Assembly: GCA_964035015.1 (NCBI GenBank)
Contig: CAXIUP010000007.1
Span: forward strand, 1,058,701 to 1,122,700
DNA: 64,000 nt
Direction of reading: 5' to 3'
From: Corallium rubrum
Taxonomy: Eukaryota > Cnidaria > Anthozoa > Scleralcyonacea > Coralliidae
The position numbers were made by a program, and so were the translations under genes. This document shows, piece after piece, positions 3,568-63,352 of the stretch. Positions within the stretch are counted from its first letter, which is position 1; each line of letters begins with the position of its first letter. The notes under the pieces were generated by a model that saw only the letters and a program-made list of their open reading frames with translations, did no database searches and was not told where the DNA came from.

Positions 3568-4477
3568 TTTAACAAATAAAACATAAAGCTCCGTGCATAT
3601 GTACTCTTATAAAGGCACGTTCAGGGGCGTAGGAAGCAGTGTTACTTTGGGGGGGCTACTTGAGTTTGTGTAATGCGCATTCGCGGCTTTGCCACAAATC
3701 CGCCTAGGGGGTCTGGGGGCATCCCCCCCCCCGAAAATGTTGAAATTTGTAAGTCCAAGAAACACATTTTAGGCTATTCCTGGCAGGCAATTTCCGGAAA
3801 ATTAAATTGCCAGGCAACTAGGCAAGGATCACATGCAGACATTTTCAAGTGCTGTGTTAAAAACAGTCAGACTACATAAATATTCAAGAATTCACTTTTA
3901 CTTAACAAGTTAACTCAATATACGTATGACGGTCATATGACGAATTTCCCGTTCTGTACGAAAGAAATTCATATTTTTATGGTGTTAGGAGGATTTATTT
4001 TTTATTTTTATAAATTATTACCAACGATCTCTTTAACTCATTTAATCTCAAACCGTAGTTGGGCAAAATATTGGGGGGGCTAATATCAGCAAGAGAAAAT
4101 ATTGGGGGGGCTGCAGCCCCTTAGCCCCCCCGGTTCCTACGCCCTTGGGCACGTTTGACGTCATTTGAACACGAAAGAAGTTGAGTAGAGGCACAAGGCA
4201 ATAGCCGAGTGCCTTTTCACTTCTTTCGTGTTCAAATAACGTCAAACGTACCTTTATAAGAGTACATATGCACAGGAGCGGTATGTTTTATTTGTTTTAT
4301 AAAATAAGAAGAAGAAAAATCAAACTAAAAGTAAGGTAATTTTAGAATTTGGCGGGCTTTCCAGCCAGCTGACGCCATTCTACGCCACTTTACGTCATTC
4401 ATGATCTATGTTCTCTTATAAATGCACGGAACTCAACCAATCAGAGCGTGCATAGAGGGCACCTTATTTTATAAAAT
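3568..4477 (+). repeat. Palindrome-capped element, split by a hAT-like MITE
   Basis: Once the MITE at 3622-4147 is discounted, a palindrome with arms of about 80 bp (3568-3621 continuing at 4156-4190; 4221-4299) caps the left end. Next comes the arm TTTTATAAAATAAG at 4298-4311 and an interior. A half-copy of the palindrome unit follows at 4411-4433 (TTCTCTTATAAATGCACGG), then CCAATCAGA at 4437-4445. The inverted arm CTTATTTTATAAAA lies at 4463-4476. Arm and motif match the recombinase-carrying element at 60907-62800. Confidence 0.65.
3622..4147 (+). mobile_element. hAT-like MITE with perfect 8-bp target duplication
   Basis: The ends CAGGGGCGTAGGAA and TTCCTACGCCCTTG are inverted copies. The flanking 8-mers, GGCACGTT at 3614-3621 and 4148-4155, are identical, as expected for hAT-superfamily insertion. 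The inner flanks are G-rich or C-rich runs. A motif near 3700-3740 (GGGGG.CTGGGGGCATCCCCC) also occurs in the element at 5006-5499. The element is 526 bp with no transposase, so it is non-autonomous. It interrupts an older palindrome, which dates it as the younger insertion. A sister copy is at 19758-20084. Confidence 0.85.
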
Positions 4478-4483
4478 GCTATT

Positions 4484-5005
4484 AAAAATGGGGGGAAATG
4501 TTACAATAAATTAAAGAATTTATTCTTTATTTTGAACAAAATTGGCATTACAGATTTTTCTTTTAAATTATAATCTTTCTATTGATTGTTTATGCTTGAA
4601 GAAAAAGTACACAGGAAAAAAGATTGGGGTCACTGTATGTATAATTATGCTTATTTTTCAAATACACAAGGTAATTCTAAAAATATTTTGAAGAGAATGT
4701 TTTTACATCTGTGTTGCAATAGCAACTGACTCATTGTTACTAAAAATTAAAACAACACAAGCAACAATACGTATTCTCTCTGCAGTAGAGTTTGTTGTTA
4801 ATTTTGGAAACTTATGTGTTGAAAACACTGTGTGATATCTACTGTACTGACATGATTTTAGTGCTTCATATCAGGTGCTATTTAATGATCAGAAATGGTA
4901 TTTCCATCACTATAACATGACTAAGTTAAAATTAGCAACTTACAAACCAAAGCAACATGAGGTATTGAATTGAATCAGTTTCACTGACTTTTTACTACTA
5001 TCCAT
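4484..5005. other. No feature recognised
   Basis: AT-rich non-coding sequence. No ORF, repeat or motif stands out. Confidence 0.4.
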
Positions 5006-5499
5006 CAGTGGCGTGGTGGCAGGGGGGGGCCAAGGCCCCCCCCAGGTTGGGTTGCAGAAGGGGTGCCAAAATTAGCAAGGGCACCAAAACTTAACAAAAT
5101 AAACCTATATCTTTGTACAGCTAAGTCTTCAATGAGGGATATAAAGATCTGAAATCTGTAATCTTTTATGTTTTCTATGACGTTTTATAATCTTCAGAAT
5201 TCTGTAAAATCTCACTCCAAAATGCAGGAAATGGCATATCAGAGACTCTAGATTTCAAAATTTTTCGGGGGACCATGCCCCCGGACCCCCCGAGAGGTTT
5301 GGCAGTACTTTGGTGCTCGCATTGGTGTGGCGTTGTTTGTTGGTTTGTTGTAATATTATATATTGCTACTTGACATATTTTAAAACAAAAAATGTGACCA
5401 CTTATCAAATACAGTAATGTCTTTTTCCTTTTTTTCTCTTGGGGGGGGGGGCAAAGCTAATCTGGCCACCCCAGCCTAAAACATGCCACCACGCCACTG
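5006..5499 (+). mobile_element. hAT-like MITE (second family)
   Basis: Perfect 16-bp terminal inverted repeats, CAGTGGCGTGGTGGCA and its complement, bound 494 bp. The flanking 8-mers, CTATCCAT (4998-5005) and TTATCCAT (5500-5507), agree at 7 of 8 positions. The interior at about 5265-5300 has ATGCCCCCGGACCCCCCG, also found degraded at 21210-21245 and, in the other orientation, within 3622-4147. No transposase is encoded. Confidence 0.8.
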
Positions 5500-6586
5500 T
5501 TATCCATGAAATGGACGAATTAGTGAAAACAAGAAAAAAGACAGTGAAGGGCAGGTGAGGCAACAGAAGAAAGGGAAGTACAGTAAGGTTAGCAAAGCGA
5601 AGGGAAAGCTACCACAGTTTTAATATTGTTGAACACACTGTCAGACAATTTGAATCAGATTGCCTATTAGTAGGCTCTCTCAAAGCGGTGCTGTGAAATG
5701 AGAGCCTGCAACAAAGCTAGGGGTAAATCAATCAATGCCCACTGAAGCAATACACAATTGTTGCAACTAATCACATTCTTCTGGAAGTCTGTGTAACAGT
5801 GCTTTCAATGCATAAAATACGCCAGCGCGATGGATCACGCTCGCCAGAGCAGATTTCACAACTGGGCAGTGCGACTTGTTTTTTCTTGAAAAACAGCGGC
5901 GGTTTATGTTGATGACTTCCTGTTACATTTCCTGGGTCAATTTTAACAGTCTATTATCATAAAACTGAACTTCAAACCAATGTTTTAAGTGTTATTTGTG
6001 GTTTTCATTTGCACAACTAGCATAAAGTTTGAGATTTTGTAGTGTTTATCGGGCCAACCCACAGGCTATAAATCAGAATGCATGACGACATTTCGGACGT
6101 ACCAAATTTATAGATGTCTTCTATCGACCGTTCCCTTCGATTAAATATATCCAGAGTTTAAAAGAAGAGTAGTGGTAATATTGGTTGATATTTACAGCAG
6201 AATATGGAATTATCTGTGACGACAAACAGTAGTTTTAAACTCATCGTTTTGTTCAGTTTGGCGGTGATCGCCTTTGTTGATCACACTTCTTTCAAAAGTC
6301 CCTGGCAAATTCACATGTAACTACTAGCAAAGTTTATAAAGTTTTGAATTTTTTACTGCAGGTTTTCATCAATTAAGCATTTCAAAACAAGAAGTACACA
6401 AATTGATATATCCCCAACAACCTCAGCACGGTGACAAATATTTATCTCGGACGGCCACTAGTGTAGTGTGTCAATATAAACAAGAACGTACTGTATTAAA
6501 CGGGATTGTCTGATGGAACTGGGCAATCTGTTACGAACAACAAATATACAGTATAGTGTAACTGGGGCCTTCAATATACAACTTAC
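5500..6586. other. Intergenic or intronic; no gene recognised
   Basis: This lies downstream of the GTPase first exon on its strand, so part is probably intron. A short plus-strand open frame near 6204 (MELSVTTNSS and on, with a hydrophobic run) is too short to support. No downstream GTPase exon could be identified. Confidence 0.35.
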
Positions 6587-6749
6587 CCAATTCTATTACT
6601 TTTGTCACGTCAAAATATGACTTCGCTCCAGATAATTTCTCTCGGACGTTCCCATTCTCACCAGCAAACTGACGAACAATAAACGATTTTCCCACACCAG
6701 AATCACCAATGACTCCAATTGAGCACGAAATACATGTGTCGTGTTCCAT
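6587..6749 (-). CDS. Small GTPase-like protein, first coding exon
   Basis: The minus-strand ATG at 6749-6747 opens 54 codons that end at a consensus donor (G|GTAAGT, 6586-6581), phase 1. The start is MEHDTCISCSIGVIG. A P-loop, GDSGVGKS, is at residues 15-22, preceded by a beta-strand-like hydrophobic segment and followed by a helix (FIVRQFAGE). This is the G1 nucleotide-binding motif of Ras/Rab-type GTPases and many other P-loop proteins. The switch regions and the NKxD motif would be on later exons, which I did not find, so the subfamily cannot be named. Alternatives are a Rab-like, Rho-like or larger P-loop protein. Confidence 0.55.
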
Positions 6750-7351: not shown

Positions 7352-8032
7352 CACGACGGGCATAAATGATGCTGAAAACGCTCACGTTAACCGTGCCTTC
7401 ATTCAACTTCTCAGATTTTATATCAGTTAGTATCAAATTTTGCACCATAACAGACATCCATAATCCTTCAAATCGTATGTTTTTTGTTTTTCCATTTTTT
7501 GTATTTTTTCGCGGAAAATGACGTCATATATTTGGCGCGAAAATTTTGTTTTAATATTTTTGCATGTTTGATGACTGCCTCAAAAACTGCATATTATGTG
7601 AACTCTAAAACCAAAAAGAAAATTGAAATATCTTTATTCAATAAAATGTTATAACGTTTTGAAATTTGAATTTTCGCCATTTTGTTTCTAAAAATAGCTC
7701 AAAATGGCTGAAAATTCAAATTTCAAAACGCTATAATTTTTGATTGAATGAAGATATTTCAATTTTTGCTTCGGTTTTAGAGCTCACATTAGATGCTTTT
7801 TTGAAGCAGTCATCAAATATGCAAAAATATTAAGACAAAATTTTCGCGCAAAACACGTGACGTCACTTTCCCGCGAAAAATACAAAAAATGGAAAAACAA
7901 AAAACATACGATTTGAAGGATTATGGATGTCTGTTATGGTGCAAAATTTGAGAATAACTGAAATAAAACCTGAGAAGTTGAATGAAGGCACGTTTAACGT
8001 GAGCGTTTTCAGCATCATTTATGCCCGTCGTG
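7352..8032. mobile_element. 681-bp foldback transposon
   Basis: Two arms of about 330 bp run from 7352 and back from 8032. The outer ends are CACGACGGGCATAAATGATG and its complement. The centre near 7680-7710 contains GCCATTTTG and its mirror. A candidate 3-bp target duplication, TAC, lies at 7349-7351 and 8033-8035. The arms hold a GACGTCA/TGACGTCA site and GGCGCGAAAATTTTG. There is no coding capacity. The arms differ by scattered substitutions, so the copy is not brand new. Confidence 0.8.
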
Positions 8033-8035
8033 TAC

Positions 8036-10602: not shown

Positions 10603-11159
10603 TCTTGGCAGAGCGTGGGCCAACCTCGTACCCAGGGTCTTATCTCCGCTCCCCCGCCCCCGCCCACCGCTGCGAAAAGACCCTGGTCTGGGCTGGTCAC
10701 GTGTCACGCAGACTTACTGGGAGTGGGCTAGTAGGATTTGTACTTTTGTAGGAACTATAAAGAAGACTGCGGAATAATCACACAGAGACAATGTTTGAAA
10801 TGTTAATTTCTTTTATTAGTTGATTTATATATAGCACCTGTTATTTGAAGTTTGCTTCACCAAACCGTCTTGGTTTTAAAACCGTTTTCAAAGAACAATG
10901 TTTGTTGCACCGTACTTGAATTGATTGTTTGCATTCTAGATCTGTTGTAGTTGCAGAATTAACTACCAGACGAAATTACACCTAAATAACAATGAGAGCA
11001 TTGATAAATTACGAACACATTAGGTATTATCCCCGAGCCCGGGCGTAGGGCCGAAGGCCCGGAGCCCGGTGAGGGTGCTAATCTCGACACGCGTGGAGTC
11101 ATTTTACACGCGTGGACAAACGTGATATGCGAACGAATTTCTGTGATCTGAATATTTAA
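10603..11159. other. No gene recognised; short GC-rich patch
   Basis: A GC-rich interval at 11031-11110 (GAGCCCGGGCGTAGGGCC, with two ACGCGTGGA copies) stands out from the AT-rich surroundings. No exon or repeat family was recognised. Confidence 0.35.
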
Positions 11160-11667
11160 CAATTATTCACCGAAGTGGAGGTGAATAGTGCTGGATATTC
11201 ACCGAGCCGCTTCGGCGAGGTGAATATCCACATTATTCACCGACACTGAGGTGAATAATTGTTTTAGCATATACCTCATAAATGAAATAACAAGTTTAAC
11301 ATTCTAGATCTTATATTTTCGGTATTTTATACAAGACACGGCCGCTAGCAACTTGGGCACTATATAACGGCACTTGGCGTACTCGATATTTGTCGACAAA
11401 ACAGTTTTCACAACTTTTGAATATATTAATGGCTAGAAAATTGTAAAGAAACATACCTGTGGACACTCTTCTACTTAATTTTGTTGAGTTTTCTCGTTAT
11501 TCTACAACATGAGCCTTGTTTATCAATAAAGTCTTCTGCTTCGGTAAACAAAGCAAAACTGGCCGCCATTTTGTTTTGCCGCAGGTGAATAGTGCAGGAT
11601 ATCCCGAGGTAGAGGAACCAATCAGATTGCGTAAAAAGCACTATTCACCTGCGAGGTATATGCTAAT
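11160..11667 (+). repeat. Palindrome-capped element
   Basis: A 102-bp palindrome fills 11160-11261, with arms of about 51 bp built from TTCACCG / CGGTGAA units. The arm TTTTAGCATATACCTC follows at 11262-11277. After the interior come a half-unit at 11581-11609 (GGTGAATAGTGCAGGATATC), CCAATCAGA at 11618-11626, and the inverted arm GAGGTATATGCTAAT at 11653-11667. No ORF supports a transposase. Confidence 0.7.
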
Positions 11668-12897: not shown

Positions 12898-13698
12898 ATA
12901 CGCCGATTGCAAATATGGCGCCGATTGCACGAAAGCGAGGCTTTTCGGTGACAACCGTTGCTAAGGGCCAAAGCGCTAATATTTCCTTTGTGAATGAGAC
13001 TTTGTTGACAGTTTTGAAAGGTGGAATTCATGCGCTGGTACGTTTAAAAAGACTATGTAGGACCTACATACGATAAAACGTGGACTCTTCTCTATTTTGA
13101 AAGAAGTTTTACCAGGATATGTTTGCTTTTGAGCGTAAAAACTCCTCTTCTGATACGTGTATTACGGCCGTACGATTATTGAACCTTTATTGCAAATATC
13201 ATGTGTTGGACATTCATTCTATTGAAGTTTGCCGTTGAAGCTTTGCATTTCTTACTCGTGTTTTCCCGTATTTTGAACTTGCCGTATATTTTTCGTTTAG
13301 TTAAGGTTTTAACTGGTTAATCATGCCCAATAATTGTTGTCGATTCACATGGGAAGAAGGTCACATTTCACAGTCTTCCGATAAAGGATCCGACAAGATT
13401 GAAGATGTGTTTTACTATTTTGAAAATCACTGCATGTGGTTGTGGCAGACTTACCTTTCCAATTTGTTTGTCTGATATTTCTTAATACCACTTTTCCAGA
13501 CGTGGCTCGTGAAAATCCGAACAGATGTTTCACCGTATTTTCGAATCACATAGCGAACAAAAATATGCTCGTTACACGTCAGACCAACTAATTTTCGTGT
13601 GAGCACATCAGGTCGCCGCTCACTTAAAGATGAAGCCGTTCCTTCGATATTTCCATGGTCGGGAGTATCTCCGAAACGAAAATCGTCGCATAAGAGAC
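12898..13698 (+). repeat. Left arm of a 1.74-kb inverted duplication
   Basis: This arm pairs with 13816-14639. The outer tip is ATACGCCGATTGC; the inner part reaches GGGAGTATCTCCGAAACG. Relative to the right arm it lacks about 29 bases near 13340, which removes the zinc-binding cysteines of the THAP domain. Both arms point inward. Confidence 0.85.
13323..13660 (+). pseudogene. THAP-domain remnant, left arm
   Basis: The ATG at 13323 starts MPNNCC, a THAP-type beginning, but about 29 bases are missing immediately after and the frame is lost. The intron boundaries seen in the right arm are damaged here: the first donor reads GATGTG instead of GGTGTG, and the second reads GGGAGT instead of GTGAGT. 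The second exon runs 13500-13660 with an intact CCAG acceptor; its GRRSLKDEAVPSIFPWS end is recognisable as the AVPTIF motif of THAP domains. Clearly decayed. Confidence 0.6.
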
Positions 13699-13815
13699 TA
13701 TTTGTGACCCCAACTAGGACTGAAATGCCCTCGTCTTATGAGACGATTAGACAACGACCAGCCGGAAGTGCCACGAGATGAAAACAGCGAGTTAAGTGTA
13801 CATTTCACTACTATA
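13699..13815. other. Unpaired centre of the inverted duplication
   Basis: About 117 bases between the two arms, with no inverted counterpart. A 48-codon open frame crosses it but extends into the arms. Confidence 0.6.
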
Positions 13816-14639
13816 CGCGGCGATTTTCGTTTTGGAGATACTCACGACCATGGAAATATCAAAGGAACGACTTCATCTTTAAGTGAGCGGCGACCTGATA
13901 TGCTCACACGAAAATCAGTTGGTCTGAAGCACTGGTCTGAGTGTAACGAGTATGTTTTTGTTCACTCTGTGATTCGAAAATACAATGAAACATCTCTTCG
14001 GATTTTCACGAGCCACGTCTGGAAAAGTGGTATTAAGAAATATCAGACTAACAAATTGAAACGTAAGTCTGCCACAACCACATGCAGTTATTTTCAAAAT
14101 AGTAAAACACACCTTCAATCTTCTTGGATCCTTTATCGGAAGACCGTGAAAAGTGACCTTCTTCCCATGTGAATCGACACGATATCCAATCTTGCAGCAA
14201 GGAACGCAACAATTATTGGGCGCATGATTAACCAGTCAAAACCTTAACTAAACGAAAAATATACGGCAAGTTCTAAATACGGCAAACCACGAGTAAGAAA
14301 TGCAAAGCTTCCACGGCAAATTTCAATAGAATGAATGTTCGACACATGATACTTCAATAATCGTACGGCCGTAATACACGTATCAGAAGAGGAGTTGTTA
14401 CGCTCAAAAGCAAACTTATCCTGGTAAAACTTCTTTCAAAATAGAGAAGAGTCCACGTTTTATCGTATGTAGGTCCTACATAGTCTTTTTAAACGTACCA
14501 GCGCATGAACTCCACCTTTCAAAACTGTCAACAAAGTCTCATTCACAAAGGAAATATTAGCGCTTTGGCCCTTAGCAACGGTTGTCACCGAAAAGCCTCG
14601 CTTTCGTGCAATCGGCGCCATATTTGCAATCGGCGTATT
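13816..14639 (-). repeat. Right arm of the 1.74-kb inverted duplication
   Basis: Reverse complement of 12898-13698, with small indels. It keeps the less damaged THAP exons and, at the outer end, a copy of the peptide beginning MAPIARKRGFSVTTVAKGQS found in both arms. Confidence 0.85.
13846..14225 (-). pseudogene. THAP-domain remnant in two exons, right arm
   Basis: Exon A reads PNNCCVPCCKIGYRV then THAP-like ..KVTFHGLPIKDPRRLK up to a GTGTGT donor after 14113. Its start codon is spoiled by two extra bases (ATGCGCCC against ATGCCC in the left arm). Exon B starts at 14028 after TTTTCCAG with TWLVKIRR, carrying the conserved THAP tryptophan. It meets an in-frame stop, then resumes as CFRPTDFRVSISGRRSL to PLIFPWS and a GTGAGT donor at 13845. 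So the full THAP module (Cys pair, Trp, DF, AVPTIF-like end) is present in outline but broken. It may come from a P-type transposase or a host THAP gene. Confidence 0.6.
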
Positions 14640-25351: not shown

Positions 25352-25357
25352 GTCAAT

Positions 25358-27005: not shown

Positions 27006-27088
27006 TTTGTTCCGTATTAATTCAGTTTCAATTCTTGTACATCGTCAGTAAACCACAATAGTCTTTCAGGATATCCTCGTCGCCAAAA

Positions 27089-33920: not shown

Positions 33921-33958
33921 TAAATGAGATATGTGTTGACACACAAGTAATAATTTAT

Positions 33959-34431: not shown

Positions 34432-35211
<780 letters not shown>

Positions 35212-38047: not shown

Positions 38048-38074
38048 ACCTCAATACAGTAATTATTAACTTAC

Positions 38075-39792: not shown

Positions 39793-41349
<1,557 letters not shown>

Positions 41350-41356
41350 AACGAAC

Positions 41357-44883: not shown

Positions 44884-45085
44884 TAGCAATTAGTAATTAT
44901 TGATAAATAACTCTTTGATATGTTAGTACTTCTTTAAATATAATATGATAATTATCGTTATGACGTTATTTTATTTTATTTTTAGATTTACTAAATTAAT
45001 GTCATTATATTATGATATGTATTTATTTATATATACCTCATGTCTTTGTAAGCAGAGGGAATCTTCAGAATTGGAGGATTAATAA

Positions 45086-45357
<272 letters not shown>

Positions 45358-47100
45358 GTAGCAAACCTTGCCCCTGGCTAAACTCAAAGATTAAGAAGCA
45401 AATGTTTGACAGAGATAGGCTCAAAAAACAAGCAATGTCGACTGATAATCCTGAAACATTGCTCACTTATAGACGACAACGTAATTTGCTAACAAATGAA
45501 ATTAAGAAGATTAAAAAGCAGTATTTTCAGGATGAAATAGATAAAAATCGCGGTAACTCAAAGGAGACGTGGAAAATCCTAAAAAACGCGATGGGAAAAA
45601 AACTTAAAAACACTGAAATTAATAAAATATCAACCGGTCATGATTTAACTAAATCATGTGATGTAGCAAATTGTCTTAATTCGTATTTCGTTGAAATGGG
45701 CCCAAAGTTGGCATTGGAAGTTCCCATTGAAATAGATGGGAAGAAACCAGAAGATTATATGTCAAAAACTGATACTAAATTTGAGTTTAAAAGAATTGAT
45801 TGTCATAAAGTAATGAGATTGATTAAAAAATTGAATTTGCGTAAGGCTTCTGGCCATGACAAAATTTCAAACGAGCTGTTGAAAATAGCTGGTCCTTATA
45901 TTTATGAATCTCTTACTGATTTATTTAATCTCTCAATTGAATCAAAGTGTTTTCCAAATGATTGGAAAATCGCAAAAGTATTTCCATTGCATAACTCCGG
46001 TGAAAAAGATGATGTAAATAATTACAGGCCAATTTCAGTTTTGTCCACTATTGCTCGTTTATTTGAACGATTATTGTATGATCAATTCTACAGTTACTTA
46101 ATTGAATATGTTCTCATTAACGCCAGGCAATCAGGCTTTCGTTCACTCCATTCAACCTTGACTGCACTACTTGATACGACAAATCAGTGGTGTTTTAATA
46201 TTGATAAGGGAATGGTAAATGGTGTCATGTTCTTAGATTTAAAAAAAGCATTTGACATTATCGACCATGAAATTTTATTAATGATATTGGCATGCTATGG
46301 TTCCTATTTGTCTAATAGACATAAGGTATGTCAGGTAAATGGAGTTTACTCCAAGAAAGGCTGTATCACCTGTGGAGTCCCACAAGGCTCCATTCTTGGT
46401 CCAGTCTTGTTCTTGTTATACATAAATGACTTACCAAGATGTTTAGATTATCGCATAAGCAGACTATTTGCTGATGATACAAATATGACCTTTACTGGCT
46501 GCAATGCTGAATCAATTCAAAAGGAAATGACCAGTGACTTAAATAAGATATTTCAATGGCTTTGTGCTAATAGGTTGACATTGAATGTCCTTAAAACAGA
46601 GTTTATGTTAATTGGATCACGACAAAAATTAGCAGCTCTTGGAGGTTCTATAGTATTGTCAGCCAATGGTGTTTCATTGAATAAAGTTCGGTCGGTGAAA
46701 TGTTTGGGAGTTGATATTGACGACAATATAACCTGGGAAACACACATCCAAGCCATTCGATTAAAGGTATCCCGTAATCTTGCAGCCCTTAGAAGAATAA
46801 GAAGTCTTAAACCAAAAAAGTCTTGTGTCTTTATATAGAGCTAACATTGAACCATATTTTATTTATTGTTCACTTTTTGGGATAGCATTACTGACACGTT
46901 AGAAAAGCAATTACAAGTTCTTCAAAATAGAGCGGCTCGCATAATTACGGGAGCTCCTTTATCAAAATCATCTTCGTTGATTTTGTCTGAATTAGGTTGG
47001 ACGAATATTAAGGAAATAAGAGAAAAACAAAAAGCTATTATGATGTACAAGATTGTACATGGTCTAGCACCAGCGTATTTATCAGATATGTTTACATTTA
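45358..47100 (+). pseudogene. CR1/L2-like LINE fragment: linker, RT, C-terminus
   Basis: Starts inside the linker (PCPWLNSKIKKQMFDRDRLK). RT blocks: GHDKISNELLK, NYRPISVLSTIARLFERLL, VMFLDLKKAFDIIDHEI, GVPQGSILGPVLF and the catalytic LFADDTNMTF. Frames shift near 46825-46875; the C-terminal part continues with LQVLQNRAARIITGAPLS to APAYLSDMFTF, where it meets a CAGC repeat. Endonuclease absent. Similar to the copy at 56770-59610. Confidence 0.85.
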
Positions 47101-47437
<337 letters not shown>

Positions 47438-47438
<1 letters not shown>

Positions 47439-48893
47439 GGCGATCTTAATTGTAATATGCTTTCCAGGATAGATAATTCTTCTAAAAATGAACTAAACAC
47501 TCTATGTGAACTCTATCAACTTGATCAACTAATTAGTGCTCCAACCAGAATCACAAGTGATACTAGAACTCTTATTGACATTATCCTCACAAACAGACCA
47601 CATCGTATAGTATCTAGTGGGGTTATACATCTGAGCATTAGTGATCATAGTATGGTGTATGCTATAAGAAAAATATCTGTCGCTTCTAAAACAACACATT
47701 CTATCACTGCAATAAGGAACTTTACAAATTTCTGTGTTGATGATTTTAACGACGACCTGAGGAATACTCCTTGGGCCGAAGTTAATAAATATGATGATCC
47801 TAACCAGATGTGGAGCTGTTGGAAGATGATGTTTCTAGGAGTTATTAATAAACATGCACCGTTAAAAAAGAAGAGAATTAGAAATAAGAAATCTCCGTGG
47901 TTAAATGCCAGAATTAAGAGATCGATGATAGATCGGGACAAATTGAAATCAACGGCCATTAGAACGAACACTTCTGAGGATTGGTCAAATTATAAAAAAG
48001 TTAAAAATCGTGTAAACAATGAAATCAAGGAAACTAAGACCCAGTATTATCAAGAACACGTCCGATCCAATTCCGGCAAACCGCGGGAGATATGGAAAAC
48101 GATTAACGAAGTCATGTCAAGAAACCCTAAGGGTATGCTTATATGATCCCGGTGTACCGGGACGGGATGGCAGCCGGGATGATTTTGATGTATTGAAATA
48201 AGTCAACACGTAAAACAGAAAAACCACGCGATGCCTGAAGAAACGCAGATTTTGTTGATCTGATCCTAAAGTTAAAAGTGAATGATTGTGGCAATTGAAA
48301 ATGGCTTTTGAGTTGAAGTTATTTAGTAATCTAGGCCTTGAAAAATGTAGGCGAAAGCTTTCCGATGCACATAATCAAAGGCGTGACTTATTTCAATACA
48401 TCAAAATCATCCCGGCTGCCATCCCGTCTCGGTACACCGGGATCATATAAACAGGCCCTAAGAATGATAGTAATATTAACTCGATTAAGACAAATGCAGG
48501 CTCCACCACAAGTCCAGATTTCTTGGAGCGTTACAGGCCACAAGGTTGCAAAAGTTAAATAATCGGGCTGGTCGAACAATATGCCAATTAGGGTACGAAG
48601 TCAGATGTCGAGGAAAGACGGAGTAAACACAAATGTATTATTATGCAATTCTTCATGGCAATGCTCCGGCATACTTGAAGCAATATTTTCTCTATGCTAA
48701 TCATGGAAGGGAATACAACCTTAGAGGTAGTGAAAATCTTATTTTGCCAAAACCAAAAACCGAATATTTAAGAAAAAGCTTCACATTTTCTGGCGCTAAA
48801 TTATGGAACAGTCTTCCAATCTATTTGAAAAATCAAGTTACTTTGTCGTCTTTCAAGCGAGAATTGACATCCCTCAGTTCCTATAACTACTAA
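47438..48893 (+). pseudogene. CR1/L2-like LINE with internal deletion and MITE insertion
   Basis: Endonuclease part: LGDLNCNMLSRIDN, TLIDIILTN, SISDHSMVYAI. A linker follows (RNKKSPWLNARIKRSMIDRD, then SRNPK). After the MITE at 48132-48455 the same frame resumes as NDSNINSIKTNAGSTTSP. It then jumps, with no RT, to LQKLNNRAGRTICQLGYEV and the C-terminal MYYYAILHGNAPAYLKQYF..GAKLWNSLP, ending at 48893. The RT domain is deleted. Confidence 0.82.
48132..48455. mobile_element. 324-bp MITE inside a LINE
   Basis: Long terminal inverted repeats (about 70 bp, with TTATATGATCCCGGTGTACC and GATTTTGATGTATTGAAATA). Flanked by CCCTAAG at 48125-48131 and 48456-48462. Removing the element restores continuous LINE coding. 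A 7-8 bp duplication fits a hAT-like insertion. Confidence 0.88.
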
Positions 48894-49419: not shown

Positions 49420-50190
49420 TATTGAAGAATTTAGGACCTTAATTGATAGCTCACTGAGAACCGTCTAATTTTAGTTCTACAAAAAGGAGTATAAAATAAT
49501 TTTGAACTTCGTGTGTTATAATGATGTACCTGATTGACCCAAAATCAAAATCAAAAAAACTATTGGGAAGTAAACCATTATGGTAAGAGTACATAAATTT
49601 ACCTAAATTAAGTACAGAAATATCATTGAATTTCAAGATTTTTAATTCCTTAAATATCGGGTCAGTATGCGCATCATATGCTTTCTTATTGATACATCGC
49701 ACTACACGTTTTTGTAACAAAATGATTCGTTTAAGATTAGAGGGATATGTTCGGCCCCAGACAGTAACACAATATTGGAAATAAGGATAGACTAAGAAAG
49801 CCAAAAACTTGATTTGTATATGATTCCTATTGATTTAGAAATTTTTCTGGCAATATGCGAGATGTGAGATTTCCAAGATAAATGCTCATCAAGTATTACA
49901 CCTAAAAATACCACTTCATTCACTTGATTAATATTACACTTATTAATCTCTAATTTCAAATCAAATTATTGTTTCCTCTGCCTTGGTTTGAACACAATAT
50001 AATTTGATTTCTTTGTATTAACAGATAATTTATTTGCCTGGAACCAGATAGACAACTTATTCAATTCAGAATTAATAGTGGTTGTTAAATAGTTTAAATA
50101 ATGACTAAAGAATAAGTTGGTATCATCGGCAAATAAAACCAATTTAAAGGCATTGCAAATATCATTTATATAAATCAGAAAATTCGTTCA
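49420..50190 (-). pseudogene. LINE fragment, RT and C-terminus, minus strand
   Basis: From about 50190 leftward: FLIYINDICNAFKLVLFADD (catalytic FADD), WFQANKLSVNTKKSNYIVF, a stop, LGVILDEHLSWKSHI, HIARKISKSIGII, another stop. The open part at 49804-49451 then has YFQYCVTVWGRTYPSNLKRI and LLQKRVVRCI. Jockey/CR1-like motif order; a different subfamily from the plus-strand copies. 5' truncated at the foldback at 50175. Confidence 0.75.
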
Positions 50191-50308
50191 TATTAGGTAC
50201 GTCTTTACTGGCACATGTAGCGTCAAGTTTGAGAAAAAAATAGTTGATCTAAATAACATCTTTGTATTATACAAGACGTACCTAATATGAACGAGTTTTC
50301 TGATTGGC
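50175..50308. repeat. Foldback with adjacent CCAATCAG motif
   Basis: TTCATATTAGGTACGTC (left) and GACGTACCTAATATGAAC (right) are inverted. The right arm runs into CTGATTGG at 50301-50308, with more CCAATCA sites at 50318-50325 and 50401-50408. Confidence 0.65.
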
Positions 50309-51756: not shown

Positions 51757-52009
51757 CCTTTGATCATTTGAGATAAGAAATATGATGTTTTGGAAGCTTC
51801 TGAATGAAACCAGAACCGCCAATATCTCCTGCCGCAAAGGGCGCTATTATTTAAAAAGCATCTCGTAGCAACTGCAGTTTTTATAGGTGTAGAATGTTTT
51901 TTAGATTCTTAGCTGCTGCAGTTATTTGTCATTGTGCATGCCAAATTTGAGAGACAAAACTCAAAAATTCAGCGCGCGGTGAGTATTCTGGTGAAATAAG
52001 ATTCTATTT
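51757..52009. other. No feature recognised
   Basis: Non-coding sequence without a clear repeat. Confidence 0.35.
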
Positions 52010-52370
52010 AACAATTAGATTATGAGCTCGAAATTTCTATGAGTGAATAGTTGACGAGAGCGGAGCTCGAGTCAACTATCATCTCATAGAAATTGAGAGC
52101 GAATAATCTAATTGTTTTAGTAGAAACTAACTTGTGTACCTTAGTTCTTCCAAATTATTTCAAAAAACGAAGCATAACCATTGTTTCTGTGCGAAAACCA
52201 AGGCAAAACAATCTTTCACTCCTCGTGTCCTCCATGTTGTTTTACTGCATGGCCGCGCGAGCACTGGTACTCAATTTGCTACTCGCTATCTATTGACGAA
52301 TAGATATCGAGTAGAGTAGCCAATCAGATTGCAGCATTTGCAATAGAATACTAGTAAGTTTCTACTAATA
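52010..52370 (+). repeat. Palindrome-capped element
   Basis: The palindrome at 52010-52116 has arms of about 53 bp (AACAATTAGATTATGAGCTC and complement). The arm TTTTAGTAGAAACTAACTTG follows. In the interior CTATCTATTGACGAATAGAT forms a small palindrome. CCAATCAGA is at 52320-52328 and the inverted arm AAGTTTCTACTAATA at 52356-52370. The order, and the AATTGTTTTAG junction, match the element at 11160-11667. Confidence 0.7.
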
Positions 52371-55790: not shown

Positions 55791-55864
55791 TTTATAAAAT
55801 AACATTTTGAAAACGCAGCGGTGATTGGTTAAAAGGCGTGTTTCTGTAACTCTATGGAAAACAT

Positions 55865-56481
55865 CGATAGATTACGCCATCCAATACGCCATCGTTCTAA
55901 TAGTGAACCCGCACAATCCAACGAGAACGAACGAATAACCTTATTAACTGAACGACTCAGTCGTCCAGACTCGTACTTTTGGTTGAGACGACGAATTGTT
56001 ATGATATTCATCAGTACAGAAGCGGGTTGATAATAACTTGTCCTTCCAACCAATAGGTAATGGAGTTTGTATGATGACTGACTCGCAGTCACCATTGAAG
56101 TATTTAACGCCACGCAAATCGAAACTCGTTTGTTCAGAGATAACCCGTAATACTCTTTGTAACAACGCTGTCATTGCACCTTTACACATGCATGCATGTA
56201 AACTGTGTGGAAATATCTTTATTTATAATGCAGGACTAAGATTTGAGCTCGATTGATAGCGCGATAACATTTGATCATTGTGGTATTGTTTGATAAAATC
56301 AACCGCGATACTCGTAAACAGTATAAACAAGGACAACGAGGGCAGTTAAAAGCAATATAACATTTTCAATTTAACACCCCAGTAACGCCCTAGTACAGCT
56401 AAAACGATTGTACTGTAGTTAAAATCTGTATTGGAGTCAAAGCAACAATCCTCAATGGCTCAACAGTTCTATAGGGTCTAT
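55865..56481. other. No gene recognised
   Basis: Overlapping frames on both strands (55829-56256) without a domain; probably interior of the palindrome-capped element. Confidence 0.35.
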
Positions 56482-56769
56482 AAAGCTACGGTTACACACC
56501 CCGATTTATGTCGCCAATTTGTGTCGCAATGGCATTGCGAGATAAATCGGTGTGTGTAACATACCCAGTCGACACCGATTTATGCGTTGCTGAAGCATTG
56601 CAAGTTTTTGATAAGGGATCAAAATCTGCAACGCCGCACAAATCAACAAGTGTAACATCATACCTGTCGCCGATTTGTGGTGAAATCATGCCAAATTTCT
56701 TTTGTTCAAGCTCCGCCCATCCTTGGTTTATTTTTAAACTTGATTTTTCATCAACACAAATTGATTGGT

Positions 56770-59407
56770 GAGAAATGGAGGAGGCGTGGCACTATACATC
56801 AGAAATACTATTAATTATGATTGTGATAATACTTTAAACTTAAGGGAATTAAACCTTGAATGGCTTTGTATTAAGGTTAAAAAACCAAAAACAAAACCAT
56901 TTCTTGTTGCAACATGGTATAGACCCCCGAATTCACCAGTGAGTGTTATGGATACGTTCGAATGCCTTTTAGAGAATCTGGAATCTCAAGATATTGAAAT
57001 TAACATCTTGGGAGATTTAAACTGTGATGTTAGTGCCACTCCTGTCGATCATAATACAAGCCGATTACTTGAAATATGTAATACTTATCAATACAAGCAA
57101 CTCATTGAACAACCAACACGTACAACAAAAAATACGGCTACCACTATAGATCTATTTTTGACTAATGATTCCACAATATTTTCTCATTATGGAACTTCAG
57201 ATATAGCCATTAGTGATCATAACCTGATATATGCCATAAGAAAATTACCATCTTTAAAATCCAGTCCTAAAATAATATTATCAAGACAATACAAAAATTT
57301 TGATTGTGGTAAATTTAGAGAAGACCTTGCGTTAATTTCATGGGAAAATATTGGAAATCAAAATGATCCAAACTCAGCCTGGGGAGTCTGGAAGGAATGT
57401 TTCCTCTCCGTTTGTGATTATCATGCTCCTTTAAAACGTAAAAAGGTTCGAAATAAGCCAGCACCATGGTTGACTTCAGATTTGAAGAAATTGATGTTTG
57501 AAAGAGACAGGCTTAAAAAAATAGCTAATCGACTTAAAACAGAGAAAGCTTTTCTAGACTATAGAGTCATTAGAAACAAAGTCAATGAAAACATTAAATC
57601 TTCCAAAATACGATACTACAACTCGTACTTCAATGAGAATTGTAAAAATATTAAGAAAGCGTGGAGAGGGGTTAATGACATACTAGGTAAAAACCCGAAA
57701 TCAACTTTTATTAATCATATTAATTATGATAATAAAAGTTGTACATCACCACGAGAGATAAGTAGTGCACTGAATTCACACTTTACAGATATTGGACCCA
57801 AATTAGCCTCTCAGATACCACTATCTAGTAGAGATTTCACAGAATACATTAACCCTACTGAGCATTCTTTCAATATATCTCAGGTATCAAACGATAAAAT
57901 AAACGAACTAATAAATGCTCTACCACTAAACAAAGCATGTGGTCTTGATGGAATCTCTGCTCGATTGTTGAAAGATGCGGCTCCCATAATTGTGCCATCT
58001 TTGACTTTTATTATCAATCTTTCAATCAGAACTGGAATTTTCCCTGATGATTGGAAGATTGCCAAGGTGACACCAATATATAAAGATGAAGATAAAGCCA
58101 ATCCGAATAACTACAGACCAATATCTGTTTTACCAGTTGTTACCAAACTGATTGAAAGAGTTATTTTTGATCAATTGTACAGTTATCTGACAGGGCACAA
58201 CTTACTTACAGAATCGCAATCTGGATTTAGACCTCAACATTCGACTATGACGGCTTTGTTAGATGCCGTAAACGATTGGTATTCAAATATAGATAGAGGC
58301 CTTTTAAATGGAATAATTTTTTTGGACCTAAAAAAGGCTTTTGACACCATGGACCATCAAATTTTGTTACATAAACTAAAATTATATGGTGTCTGCCAAT
58401 CAAGTTTAGTTTGGTTTACTTCCTATTTAAAAGAACGTAAGCAAAGTACATTTTCAAACGGTGTCCTGTCGGATAGCTGTGCTATAAATTGTGGAATTCC
58501 ACAAGGTTCAATACTTGGTCCGTTACTCTTCTTAGTTTATATTAACGATTTACCATCTTGTGATCTATTTTCCAAAGTACGAATGTATGCAGATGACACT
58601 AGTCTTACTATAGCTAGTGATAATGTGCATGTACTAGAGCAACAAATGAATCACGATATGTCTGAAATACATACATGGTTACAAGCCAACAAACTAAGTC
58701 TAAATGTCGTGAAAACTAAATATATGATAATAGCAAGTCAGCATAAAATACGACACCTCACACATCAATTTCAAATTGAAGTTAACCACCAACTTTTAAA
58801 AAGAGAGAAAGGATATAAATATCTCGGGGTTGAAATAGATGACTCCTTAACTTGGAAAGATCATATTTGTAAAATCTCTAAGAAAATATCTGGGGGGATA
58901 GGTGCATTAAAACGGGTCAGACAACTTGTGCCATTTAAATTATTACTTACTATGTATAATTCATTAGTACTGCCGTATTTCGATTACTGCAGTGCAGTTT
59001 GGGGAAGTTGCGGTAGAGGATTTTCCGATACACTTCAAAAGTTACAAAACAGAGCTGCCAGAGTAGTTACTTTTTCAAGTTATAACAGACAATCTACCGA
59101 GTTGCTGGATGAGCTTAAATGGGATAATCTTGAAATAAGGAGATCGAAACAACTAGCTGTGATGATGTATAAAATAATGATTAACAGGGCACCAAGTTAT
59201 TTAACTAACATGTTTGAGAACATAACTTCTGTACATTCTCATAACTTGAGAAACTCAGAGTATAATGTTTATGTCCCAAGACCATATACTGAAGCTGGCA
59301 AAAACAGCTTTCATTATCAGGGAGCGGTTCTCTGGAATAGTCTATCGAGAGATATAAGATGTCAAGACAATGTGAGATCTTTTAAAAAATATTTAAATCG
59401 TAGTTAG
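56770..59407 (+). CDS. LINE ORF2 protein, N-terminally truncated, otherwise intact
   Basis: About 878 uninterrupted codons; the frame enters from the flanking MITE without an ATG. The endonuclease part starts NGGGVALYIRN, with ATWYRPP, LGDLNCD, TTIDLFLTN and SDHNLIYAI, and lacks the first catalytic Asn/Glu region. Linker PAPWLTSDLKKLMFERDRLK. RT: CGLDGISARLLK, NYRPISVLPVVTKLIERVI, IIFLDLKKAFDTMDHQILL, GIPQGSILGPLLF and the catalytic MYADDTSL. C-terminus: LQKLQNRAARVVT and NSLSRDIR. It cannot retrotranspose alone, because the 5' end is missing, but it is the youngest-looking LINE in the window. Confidence 0.88.
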
Positions 59408-59610
59408 GTTATTATAGTTATTAGGTATTATTATAAAAGATTGTAAATAATTCATACGTATTCTATATATTTGTAATTGCTTGTAATTTTTTTTTTTTTT
59501 TATATATATATATTTGTAATTATTCTTAAAAATTGTACACGGCTCACTGGAAGAGCATGTATTAATGAAGTGATACCGTGTTTAAATAAAGATTATTGAT
59601 TGATTGATTG
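56770..59610 (+). mobile_element. 5'-truncated CR1/L2-like LINE with open ORF2
   Basis: Starts within the endonuclease domain. The ORF ends at 59407, with a 3' UTR containing AATAAAG and an (ATTG)n tail. TTGATTGGTG lies both before the 5' junction (56761-56770) and at the end of the tail, which fits target-primed insertion at or into an ATTG-like site. Confidence 0.85.
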
Positions 59611-59775
59611 ATTGGTGTAGCCGGGTGACCGATTTATCTCGCAATACCTTGCGACACAAATCGGCGACACAAATCGGTGTGTTTAACCAAAGCTTAAGAA
59701 GTATTCATTCGCTGTTTTTTGCAAGAATAGTTCTTTTGTTTGAAGGACGTCGTCGTTGAGGTGATCTTAAATCCC

Positions 59776-60239
59776 TTAAGGCGGATTTCCATTCAACTTT
59801 TTTTGTCGAGCGAGCGTCTTTTTGCGATAGCTTTCTTTGTTTCATGCCTTCTCGGGTGGAACGGAGCCGGTCCAGAGCCCATAAGACAAAAGAAAGCGAT
59901 TGCAAATCGTCGATCGCGCGACAAAAAGCACTGAATGGAAATCCGCGTTTAAGGTGATTTTCCACTAGACGAAAAATGTCGCGCGAAGCGACATTTTCTT
60001 TTGTCTCGTAAGCTCTCGGGTGGAACTAATTAGCCAAGACAAAAGAAAAAAATCGCTTCGCTCGAAAAATATCGCCTAGTGGAAAACAGCGTTAAGGCGG
60101 ATTTCCACTAGGCGACATTTGTCGACCGACTCGACATTTTTCTTTTGTCTTGGCTAATTAGTTCCACTCGAGAGCTTGCGGGACAAAAGAAAATGTCGCT
60201 TCGCGCGACATTTTTCGCCTAGTGGAAAATCGCCTTTAA
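59776..60239. mobile_element. Three abutting TTAA MITEs
   Basis: Units 59776-59952, 59949-60095 and 60092-60239 share their TTAA boundaries. Tips are TTAAGGCGGATTTCCATTC, TTAAGGTGATTTTCCACTAG and TTAAGGCGGATTTCCACTAG, each mirrored at its other end. Units 2 and 3 share the core AAGCTCTCGGGTGGAACTAA-like sequence in opposite orientation. Confidence 0.85.
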
Positions 60240-60725
60240 TGATCAGCTACAAGTGTTGATAAGTCAAATACGTTGACGTTTTTAGTGCTCTTGTGACAAT
60301 ACCTTGGGCCTAGGTGTATATATAATAATGACTTATTATAATTGTTCGTTAAACAGTGAGTTTTACCATGCAAAAGTTCTCAATAAAAATTGTCAAACAA
60401 TGGCTGCATTTTGTATATTACTCTTGGGAGTGTTCGCTGATTAAAATGTTCTGAACCCTGTGTTGGTAAACGATTTTAAAATATGACGACAATTAGACGC
60501 GTGCTGGACAATTAGATTATAATCCCCGCGATAACTTGGCAAATTCTTTGTTAAAATACCTTTAGGAAAAGCGATAAGATTAGGGAATTTGGAAAAAAAC
60601 ACTGATTCTTGCTTATTATCGACAAAATGGTGCTTTGTAGGATATCATTATCAACGAAGTAGGTAGAAACAACATTTTCCACAATTTGGAGTTGACATAA
60701 ATTGTGAAGCGGTGACTGTGGCAAA
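60240..60725. other. No gene recognised
   Basis: AT-rich sequence, no ORF of note. Confidence 0.4.
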
Positions 60726-60890
60726 TAAAGGCTAGTTTCAACTGAGGAAAATTTTCCTCAAGACAGGAAAGGACAGGAAATTTTCTTTGTCTTGTGAGCT
60801 CTCGGCGGAACTAATGACTTTAACACAAAGGAAACTTTCCTGTCCGTTCCTGTCCTGCGGAAGATTTTCCTGAGTGGAGACTAGCCTTAA
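60726..60890. mobile_element. MITE related to the TTAA trio
   Basis: TAAAGGCTAGTTTCAACTGA and GTGGAGACTAGCCTTAA are inverted tips. The interior has GAGCTCTCGGCGGAACTAAT, shared with the units at 59949-60239. Confidence 0.75.
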
Positions 60891-61198
60891 GAGAACATTT
60901 TCATTTAAGAAATACCTAATGGGTTTCCATGTTTGGATAGCCTGATCCAAACACGAGGGATGTTGCGAGACTTTCGAAAAGCGTAAAAAAGCGTAAAGTC
61001 TAGCAACATTCCGAGTGTTTGGATCAGGCTATCCAAACATGGAAACCCTTTAGGTATTTCTTTTATAAAATGACAACACATGTTTTTTTTAACAATCTTT
61101 ATTGAACAAACTTATATCAACATATCAATTCTCCCAAAATTCATGAGCTACCAATCACAAGCCGGCTTGGCATGAAAACACTAGAAAATCTTTGAAAG

Positions 61199-61918
61199 TT
61201 AAATGAGTTGAGGTGTAAAACGGTTCTTAATTAAATGGTTAAAGTTAAAACTGACATTCACATTTCCAATGGAACAACTGGTAAACAAGCCACTGAAATC
61301 GGGAAGATCTGGCATGGAAACGTTGGCTAGCTCCGAGTGAACGGTTGTTGTCGTCTGACTCGTCTTCGTCGCGCTTGTTGCCGTGCTGGTTTCGTTCGAG
61401 ACCAAATGCAGGACCGATCGTTTTTGTACTGGCTGATAGTTGTTTGGAGCGGTACCAAGAGCTTCTGAAAGAACTTCACTACACCGCTTCAGTTGCGAGG
61501 TCGATGGTCGTTGATTGTAGTGCAAGAGAGATTGCTCATTGCGATGGCCAGAAATTGCCATGATATGCCGATTTGTCAAACCAGCATTAGACCATAGCGT
61601 TATGGACGTCGCTCTTACGGAGTGGTTGGTGTAAATCTGTGACAGATTTGCCTCTGAGCTTATGATCTTCATCATATCGCCAAGCTTGTTTATCCCAAGA
61701 GGACGATTTTCGTACCAGATGCTGTCTGTCGGATTCCACTGACGTTTCGGGTACTGGAAAAGTGCATCGCAGACTGGATTTAATTTGGCGAGATAAAACT
61801 GCAAAGCAGTATAACCATCGTTTTCTTTTGTGGTCTTGTACATCCTTCCCAGGTTTTTAAAGCTCTCGCTGTCGTTAATGCCGCCTGGATGATTTTTGGA
61901 CGATTCGTTATGTGTCAT
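61199..61918 (-). pseudogene. Crypton-like tyrosine recombinase, catalytic part
   Basis: 239 codons, in the same frame as 61946-62319 but separated by a TAG. Visible recombinase residues: H99-x2-R102 in YTNHSVRATS, H125 in SGHRNEQSL, and Y134 in LHYNQRP as the candidate nucleophile. It resembles DUF3504/Crypton-derived domains (as in ZMYM2, QRICH1 and KIAA1958-like proteins), which share NHSxRATSI and ISGHxxExSLxxY. The Ser/Thr-rich C-terminus reaches the stop at 61199. At the stop junction about 25 residues expected after HTTLY (the GRRGxE region with the first Arg) are missing, so the enzyme is dead. DNA strand cleavage and rejoining is the family role. Confidence 0.75.
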
Positions 61919-61945
61919 GGTGACATACGCTTCGCCGCTGCCATC

Positions 61946-62319
61946 CTAATACAGCGTTGTGTGAAACCACACATTCCTGAGTAGGCCGATTGGAGTTGAG
62001 CAATTAAGGACATCGCTTCTTCTCAATGTTGTCAGGTCTTTGCTTTCCAAGGCAGGTTTGTGTTTAGTTTTCTCCTTTCCTTGTTTCTTCAATGAGACTA
62101 TTTTCGCGTTAAGGACGGCGTTTGACATCTTAAATGCGGGATTACTGGAGATAGTCAAACCTCTGTTATGTGGAGGGAAATTAAGAAATCTTTCCAAACC
62201 ATGCCTGATTCCAAGCAAAGTTGACTTGCTGTAATCTTCGCCGTCTTTGTTTTTGACCTCGGCATAAAACAAACGAAGGTGTTTGTCCAAGGTCTCCTCG
62301 TCCATTTCGTGTAGCTGAA
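61946..62319 (-). pseudogene. Crypton-like recombinase, N-terminal core-binding part
   Basis: Begins after the acceptor TTACAG| with VQLHEMDEETLDKHLRLFYA, then KNKDGEDYSKSTLLGIRHGL and ERFLNFPPHNRGLTI, the SAM-like core-binding region in this family. Later come SLKKQGKEKTKHKPALESKD and LLRNVWFHTTLY, then TAG. The exon is phase-compatible with 62496-62646. Confidence 0.72.
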
Positions 62320-62495
62320 CTGTAATTTCACGCGTATTACACCATTCTTAAAATAAGAGAGTATTTTTTTCCAGTTCGCAATTAAACACCGACAATATAA
62401 ACGTTAGCTGAATTAACTGACTCGAAGTGAAATTAGAAATTTTAGCAGTTCAAGTAAATACCAAATATGTGTAAAAACGTAAAATGTAAACATAC

Positions 62496-62646
62496 CTTTA
62501 AAAACCTTTACGGCATAACTTGTTTTGTATTTTGTACTTTTCGCTTGTGCATTAATTAGCAGCTCGTCAACGTCTTTCTGACAAAATTTACCAAATCTTT
62601 CCGGCTTTTTTTCCTTTGTTAGTTTCCTTATTACGATTATATACAC
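62496..62646 (-). pseudogene. Crypton-like recombinase, 5' exon
   Basis: KPERFGKFCQKDVDELLINA and KYKTSYAVKVFK match the start of DUF3504-type proteins. Ends at AAAG|GTATGT in phase 1, which fits the next exon. No ATG in frame; the start at 62646 is only where the frame opens, so the true start is upstream or lost. Confidence 0.6.
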
Positions 62647-62800
62647 TGTCTAAGTCAATATTCGCAACTAAATTGTCGTCGGACGTTTTTAAATTCTGAA
62701 GCCGGAAAATTCCTGTGTTTTGGATAGCCTGATCCAAACATGGGTATTGACCAATCAGAGCTCGCGTAGTATACGTGTTATTTTATAAAACACTATACCT

Positions 62801-63184
62801 CAGGTGATTTCTATGTGCCGGTATAATTAAAATGGTCTTATGAATAGCATGCATGTGGTTTCTCGATCGAGTTTAAGCGTGAAGGTATACAGCTATACGA
62901 GTTTTGGTCGTTCTTATATATTGAATGTTGACGACTGGTTACATTCTGGCAACAGCCAATGAACATCTAAGATTTTGCCTGCCATATAATTAGCATAACT
63001 GCATATTCGTCCATTCTCGTTGGATTGTGCAGGTTCACTAATTAACATTTGTACAGAAACACCATTATACGCCATCCACTTAGCCTACCATCCACTATAC
63101 GCCATCAAACGCCATCCATACAGGTTAATGAGAATCTACGCTTTTTATTTGGATTCATTTTAACGTTTCATCTATTTTGACGGG
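62801..63184. other. No gene; CGCCATCC repeats
   Basis: ATACGCCATCCA-type motifs repeat at 63068-63115 and also occur at 55873-55893. Otherwise no feature. Confidence 0.4.
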
Positions 63185-63198
63185 TTATTTTATAAAGG

Positions 63199-63352
63199 AA
63201 ATAGAAAACATTTTTTCCGTGTTCCTATAGAGTTATAGAAATACTTGCGGAAGTTTGGAAGAACTCGAAATAGTGTGTAACTTCTCGTTCTCCAAAACTT
63301 CCCCTCGTGTTTCTATAACTGTATATAGAAACACGGAGAATGTTTTCTATTA
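63199..63352. repeat. Palindrome
   Basis: Arms of about 65 bp (AAATAGAAAACATTTTTTCC to GGAAGTTTGGAAGAAC, mirrored). Its unit GTGTTTCTATAACT recurs singly at 55838-55851. Confidence 0.75.

Follow-up and report, generated by a model that had tools for sequence, protein, structure and literature searches.

What kind of mobile element carries a palindrome at one end and a lone copy of the palindrome's unit at the other? The question is raised by a stretch of 64,000 nucleotides of the Corallium rubrum genome (assembly GCA_964035015.1, contig CAXIUP010000007.1, positions 1,058,701 to 1,122,700; this whole stretch is called the window below), where an original prediction had described six structures, here E1 to E6, as sharing one order of parts: outside palindrome, inverted arm, interior, half-copy of the palindrome unit, the motif CCAATCAG and opposite arm. 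The prediction saw in this order a recombination or processing site and not a classical transposon end. We followed the structures into the coral's own genome (474 Mb in 312 contigs, the single source of all our DNA evidence), with loci picked by their tyrosine recombinase (YR) gene. The many loci at which such ends enclose a YR gene, together with exact boundaries and empty insertion sites, make it very probable, on sequence grounds, that these are transposon ends after all, belonging to a family of Crypton-type YR DNA transposons from which the gene-less copies in the window derive.

Recombinase genes and the layout of the ends

The YR gene of E5 is broken by an in-frame stop and has no match to residues 121–140 of the protein P0002, which hold the CRRGREGQR catalytic-arginine motif. 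A protein search returned 435 relatives, the YR relatives with names being from anthozoans (Paramuricea, Actinostola, Exaiptasia, Montipora and Oculina), and the R-H-R-Y catalytic positions are conserved in an 18-sequence alignment in which the window's row is partial. Searching the coral genome with P0002 gave at least 113 matches (110 of 778 candidates scored), many of them without inner stops. In the intact copy L052, the one element for which open reading frames (ORFs) were listed, a single ORF of more than 100 amino acids encodes a 372-amino-acid tyrosine recombinase with R-H-R-Y in place, and neither a Rep-helicase nor a DDE transposase is found among ORFs above that length.

For the L052 protein, the DUF3504 and Phage_integrase matches exceed the Pfam cut-offs, and DUF3504 did so in all four proteins tested. 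A fold model of P0002 (mean pLDDT 72, pTM 0.62) matched human QRICH1 best, followed by Cre and other YRs, with TM-scores of only 0.3–0.5. Judged by Pfam and this predicted fold, the recombinase is of the DUF3504/QRICH1-related type, that is, of the animal CryptonA lineage. Searches of IMG/VR and GTDB for relatives gave nothing in one case and one and eight partial matches (25–36% identity) in the others, and a DNA-level search of phage records found no relatives.

Around these genes, the ends follow one plan. The left end (LE) carries a palindrome made of two inverted copies of a dyad, each dyad consisting of two half-sites around a 6-nt spacer, which in most element types is flanked on both sides by AT (AT-N6-AT). 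The right end (RE) has one dyad copy, oriented as the outer left copy, followed by a CCAAT box and then by an arm that has its match immediately inside the palindrome. What had been taken for a half-copy is therefore one whole dyad site, of which the palindrome holds two in inverted orientation; the accompanying idea, that an arrangement paired at one end and unpaired at the other is of recombination type, agrees well with units that have the geometry of tyrosine recombinase sites. The CCAAT box, which presumably resembles the NF-Y consensus, is probably a host-factor (NF-Y-like) site acting as promoter and bend.

An RE was found at 24 of the 30 fetched YR loci as a dyad, then CCAATCA (once CCAATTA), then the terminus, and complete left and right ends were obtained at 22. 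At all 24 loci the right dyad lies 15–20 nt ahead of CCAAT (scanned over 10–40 nt, with spacers of 4, 6 or 8) and the terminus lies 38 nt from the first C of CCAAT(C/T)A, a class that by coordinates also includes E1 and E5. In a second RE class, formed by E2, E4 and divergent YR loci, CCAATCA stands 48–49 nt from the terminus, a difference of 10–11 nt or about one helical turn. Four of eight divergent YR loci (34–40% identity) carry an RE with dyad and CCAATCA (L060, L062, L063 and L067); for L064 and L066 the finding is CCAATCA or CCAATTA at 48–49 nt from a terminus, and in L061 and L065 neither feature was seen. On the left, the outer dyad spacer is 33 or 34 nt from the terminus in 13 element types, a constancy partly built in by scanning offsets of 31–36 only (18–20 only on the right), and the outer dyad score falls to 4/9 in L030, L052 and E4. 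Automatic detection of the left end was unreliable for E1, E5, E6 and L039, for which anchors were set by hand. Elements start with TTAA(G/C), or in one family TAA(A/G)G, and end in TAA; in the junctions examined they share no terminal direct repeat, only inverted arms.

Could CCAATCAG and palindromes simply meet by chance in an AT-rich, repeat-rich genome? The motif taken alone gives this reading some room. It occurs nine times in the window against 1.7 expected, a count reached in none of 100 shuffles, and five of the nine lie within E1–E5, the other four being at 50300, 50360, 50402 and 51396. A window-only control for CCAATCA with an arm and a hairpin was noisy and did not single out the motif. 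Genome-wide, CCAATCAGA occurs 24,159 times against 1,174 in the reversed control (20-fold), a count inflated by other repeats that carry it. A strong dyad (at least 9/10) at 17–20 nt was present at 4 of 44 sampled CCAATCAGA sites, all within the initial 1.5 Mb of a single contig (random 0.5%), leaving 40 without one at the right distance; for dyads of at least 8/10, other 4-nt offset windows around those sites gave 0–3 sites against four, and the averaged dyad profile at 24 sampled sites had no offset with z > 3. CCAATCAG by itself is not diagnostic of the family. Chance is nevertheless refuted by the YR genes, since 24 of the 30 lie in the identical layout and the distance to the terminus is the same in all 24, and we give it next to no probability. 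The expected co-occurrence beyond chance is thus borne out for the fixed spacings at the YR loci and fails for the motif alone, and the alternative that the parts belong to independent miniature inverted-repeat transposable elements (MITEs) falls with their co-occurrence at fixed spacings around YR genes.

Three of the four outlying CCAATCAG copies in the window are near a hairpin at about 50174–50304, and by eye all four misfit the Crypton layout. Elsewhere, L019, L023, L085, L072–L074 and L081 are other repeats with CCAATCAGA in different contexts (ACCAATCAGAAGCCACGACATATTCACGC; AATAACCAATCAGAACCAACCAC).

Boundaries and target

Seven copies of one element (L052–L055 and L057–L059), 98.6–99.9% identical to L052 over about 2240 nt, lie in seven different flanks at which identity ends abruptly, which fixes their boundaries. 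Queries made by joining the flanks of 15 YR loci, searched against the same genome, recovered empty sites for four, the check that the original prediction had called for. The empty site of L034 aligns over 144 of 144 nt (99%, ungapped), those of L033 are more than 30 repeat copies (96–99%, nearly all ungapped), those of L047 are two copies (140 nt ungapped, 98–99%), and that of L055 has 139 nt for 140, i.e. a 1-nt gap. Where visible, at these four, the element went in at one point, and the target neither gained a duplication nor lost bases; the empty sites do not fit a 3-nt duplication of TAA, which had been considered as a candidate.

The sequence around the insertion point follows a rule. 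In 28 junction pairs (22 from the YR loci of the first search, two from divergent loci and four from the window), A stands at −2 in 24 (p = 2.7e-9), T at −1 in 19 (p = 7e-5) and T at +8 in 25 (p = 2.4e-10); without sites in AT repeats (n = 22) the counts are 19, 15 and 19. Of sixteen further right ends, 12 had T at +8 and 10 had A at +7. Following the RE sequence ATGTTATTTTATAA genome-wide, T at +8 was found 1113 times and another base 203 times (32 and 58 in the reversed controls), so that 1113 of 1316 matches of this one RE subtype carry the T, against a background of 31%; A at +7 was present in 59 of the first 100 matches with T, and some of the 203 non-T cases are, by their printed letters, inner left-end copies or RE^LE joints. 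Genome-wide repeat counts are lower bounds throughout. A wider logo from 24 left and 36 right flanks reads T-3 A-2 T-1 ^ N6 A+7 T+8 R+9. The target thus resembles a weak form of the element's own dyads, an inverted TAT-N6-ATR with their geometry, and the insertion point is the left edge of the spacer, the place at which cleavage by a tyrosine recombinase would be expected. A direct-repeat target (TTAT..TTAT) was set aside, the wider logo fitting the inverted form better.

One copy, L031, interrupts the left dyad of another copy, its insertion point being exactly GGAT^AGTGTGATCC. We also observed many insertions in or beside (TA)n arrays (L035, L036, L037, L049–L051, L054 and E2 of the window), and the palindromes into which L031 and L047 are inserted belong to other elements. 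The elements may prefer cruciform-prone DNA, or the reason may simply be that TA arrays contain TAT-N6-AT.

Several points weigh against the assignment to Cryptons. Six of the 30 YR loci (L035, L036, L042, L043, L045 and L048) have no recognisable RE. For 11 of the 15 joined flanks no empty site appeared among the candidates scored, failures that weigh little either way because 40 of 3274 candidates were scored, mostly for L033, and the flanks of L056 had been joined at a right end present in duplicate. The preference for A at +7 is weak, at 15 of 28 junction pairs (p = 0.01) and, without AT repeats, 9 of 22 (p = 0.21). Left and right dyad spacers differ in the L030 and L052 families, which comprise near-identical or open copies, so the dyads need not recombine together and could be mere binding sites. 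As loci were picked by their YR gene, copies in which these ends enclose a different gene would escape. Finally, insertion without a target-site duplication (TSD) is also known for DDE elements, as described for Spy (PMC4482050).

The last two points are those on which a different origin could build, namely MITEs of a DDE superfamily (Harbinger- or Spy-like, with an AT-rich target and no TSD), some copies of which captured a YR gene. Terminal inverted arms and many gene-less copies would suit such elements, as would the lack of TSDs in Spy (PMC4482050), and DDE-bearing copies would have gone unseen in a YR-based search. Yet L052 has no second ORF of more than 100 amino acids, YR genes from several divergent groups all lie within the same layout, and the target shares the inverted geometry and 6-nt spacer of the dyads, which together render a DDE origin very unlikely. 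TSD-free insertion and a palindrome near one end would likewise agree with rolling-circle (Helitron- or Helentron-like) elements with terminal hairpins; against the coding content of L052, a 372-amino-acid YR and no other ORF above 100 amino acids, and against the inverted terminal arms and the dyad target, we consider these extremely improbable.

Joining and insertion of the ends

How could Crypton-type elements with such ends move? In the scheme that we propose, the recombinase would bind the dyads and bring the ends together, a circle would be made by joining RE to LE, and the circle would be inserted by strand exchange at TAT^N6-AT, always at one spacer edge. Recombination between left and right dyads as a necessary step of transposition was rejected, because copies share sequence to their outer termini and the L030 and L052 spacers differ.

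The structure of the joined ends bears on the form of this exchange. The best pairing of the left palindrome is reached by leaving out exactly two bases of the left end (TT or TA) in 25 of 28 elements, one base in L031 and L046, and three in L032, where the start is ambiguous. The inner arm adjoins the palindrome and pairs with the right arm at 11–14 of 14 positions, and the right arm ends at the insertion boundary (L054, L063, E3, E6 and the six YR loci lacking an RE were left out of the arm and bulge analysis). From this contiguity and pairing it follows that joined RE, LE and inner arm fold as one hairpin, and all three that we folded gave, at −95 to −98 kcal/mol, a hairpin in which two bases bulge out at the crossover.

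By analogy with integron attC sites, these features tentatively suggest a folded single-strand recombination that is strand-specific: the YR would join one strand to duplex TAT^N6-AT, and replication would complete the insertion. The left palindrome and the two terminal arms would then form one hairpin with its bulge exactly at the RE^LE crossover. We infer the single-strand exchange solely from the single-point junctions.

A duplex route is about as likely, or slightly more so. Here the YR would integrate the circle as Cre, lambda or Tn916 do, exchanging both strands at the edges of the 6-nt spacer, with heteroduplex repair always favouring the element at the left and the target at the right and with the palindrome serving as a pair of binding sites. 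The nearest folds, QRICH1 and Cre, speak for it, as do the likeness of dyads and targets, both with a 6-nt spacer, and the step of about one helical turn between the two RE classes, a step compatible with a protein complex sitting on duplex DNA. If repair were random, on the other hand, about half of the insertions should retain 6 nt of target at the left end or 6 nt of element at the right end. What we observed is that left ends keep their own bases in 23 of 23 (located through their pairing, independently of the bases with which they start; L039 failed) and that none of 24 right ends continues into the first 6 nt of the left end. Nor does duplex integration give any role to the contiguity of arm and palindrome or to the two-base bulge.

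Joints of the form RE^LE (TTATTTTATAA^TTAAGAAAT, with the LE read over 9 nt only) occur six times in the genome and not at all in the control, at C1:38301672, C1:81214742, C8:35143896, C15:2549387, C18:10676976 and C25:13460732. They could be tandem copies, circle remnants or kept spacers; with so short a reading, some could be right ends that keep the element's spacer, which would speak for duplex integration. L056 carries its right end twice, as an exact tandem duplication of 95 nt at about 2748–2940 of the oriented copy. The junction links the right terminus exactly with a point in the interior (GACT^TTACAAAC), as would result if only the right end had recombined inward.

Window elements and known systems

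The ordered layout announced for six places in the window is clear in five, E1, E2, E4, E5 and E6; E3, in which arms and CCAATCAG are present, has a decayed palindrome, and no matchable copy of the unit was found on its right side. Likewise, the motif said to be common to all is CCAATCAG in E1–E5, with CCAATCAC in its place in E6. The arm adjoins the palindrome without a gap in E1, E2, E4 and E5. The right-side dyad is degenerate on one side in E1, E2 and E6 (5/10 pairs) and better kept in E4 (9/10) and E5 (7/10).

E1 is a non-autonomous element of 906 nt on the plus strand (3569–4474). Its left-end palindrome (3569–4296, outer dyad spacer at 3603) is split by a nested insertion at about 3628–4150, as judged by eye, and is followed directly by the inner arm at 4297–4308; CCAATCAG is at 4437–4444, and right arm and terminus are at 4463–4474. 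The non-autonomous E2 (11156–11666, plus strand, 511 nt) has its left palindrome and inner arm at 11156–11277 (arm 11264–11277), and CCAATCAG through the right terminus spans 11618–11666, in the 49-nt class. E3, on the minus strand at 37719–38069, is a decayed non-autonomous element with its left end at about 38069. E4, also non-autonomous (52008–52368, plus strand, 361 nt), has left palindrome and inner arm at 52008–52128 (arm 52117–52128) and a right-end dyad spacer at 52294–52299, 20 nt ahead of CCAATCAG at 52320.

E5, the Crypton copy with the broken YR gene, covers 1884 nt of the plus strand (60905–62788). Its left palindrome and inner arm (60905–61074, arm 61063–61074) contain two inverted TGTTTGGAT-AGCCTG-ATCCAAACA sites, the YR gene remnant runs on the minus strand at 61199–62347, and the right-end dyad at 62719–62738 has its spacer end 19 nt ahead of CCAATCAG (62751–62758), before right arm and terminus at 62777–62788. 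The outer element E6, on the minus strand at 55792–63358 with its left end at 63358 and right end at 55792, now encloses E5 together with an ORF for a long interspersed nuclear element (LINE)-type reverse transcriptase.

Other long inverted repeats in the window, at 7352–8032, 12898–14638, 33953–34828 and 59948–60239 (longest arms 146–399 nt), are perhaps foldback or MITE elements of other families. By eye, retroelement-like ORFs, gag/pol-like or for LINE-type reverse transcriptases, are present at 22863–27044 (minus strand), 41183–44029, 45000–48146 and 56765–59407 (all plus strand), with long microsatellites in or near several of them.

Cryptons have given rise to the conserved animal genes ZMYM2/3/4, QRICH1, KCTD1 and KIAA1958, according to PMC3212892. 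Transposition of animal Cryptons has so far been inferred by analogy, their way of cutting into the genome being unknown. The coral elements supply exact ends, recombinase-type sites, the TAT^N6-AT target rule and a large non-autonomous set, and binding, cleavage and strand use thereby become directly testable. The layout also offers a practical rule for spotting gene-less Crypton derivatives that may have been filed as unknown MITEs in repeat libraries. A literature search, to which subscription papers and Repbase reports were out of reach, found no description of this end layout in the texts accessible.

The family resembles CryptonA in its YR with R-H-R-Y, its relation to DUF3504 and QRICH1, its non-autonomous derivatives and its lack of TSDs. 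For animal Cryptons, Kojima and Jurka (2011, PMC3212892) state that terminal repeats were not found, and fungal and oomycete groups have direct repeats of 4–6 bp. The coral elements differ from the animal Cryptons of that account in their inverted arms, in a two-site palindrome on the left and one site with a CCAAT box on the right, and in their TAT^N6-AT-like target. Vertebrate Eulor5/6 repeats have been linked to Crypton termini (Kojima, PMC5753468).

Among other systems, IS200/IS605 elements have a terminal hairpin and insert just 3′ of a short target without TSD or loss, by means of an HUH Y1 transposase, not a YR, and without a dyad target with a 6-nt spacer. The coral elements share with them the terminal hairpin and the TSD-free, lossless insertion, and differ in their YR and dyad target. 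To our knowledge, a paired/single dyad layout has not been described for Spy or Harbinger MITEs. Terminal inverted repeats, an AT-rich target and, for Spy, the lack of TSDs are points of likeness to Spy/Harbinger (PMC4482050), whose transposase is of the DDE type. SE elements (strand-biased circularizing integrative elements; PMC9345347) are YR elements with a 6-bp spacer that form their circle from one strand. They have genes for two YRs and take 6 bp of donor flank along to the new site, whereas in the coral elements donor-derived bases were seen at neither end.

The closest parallel to folded-strand recombination is the integron. In attC x attI recombination, single-strand exchange leaves a single-point junction. 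PMC8946536 describes integron integrases that exchange a single folded strand, after which replication does the remainder, and the likeness to the coral elements extends to the YR, to a palindromic two-site partner facing a simple site, and to extrahelical bases. There are also clear differences: in the coral, a eukaryotic transposon has the palindrome at one of its ends and the single site at the other, the YR encoded inside the element is of DUF3504 type and not of IntI type, no cassette array was found in the loci read, the crossover lies 33–34 nt from the dyad at the base of the palindrome, and single-strand exchange is something we only infer. If the folded-strand reading is true, the bacterial integron mechanism would have a counterpart in animals.

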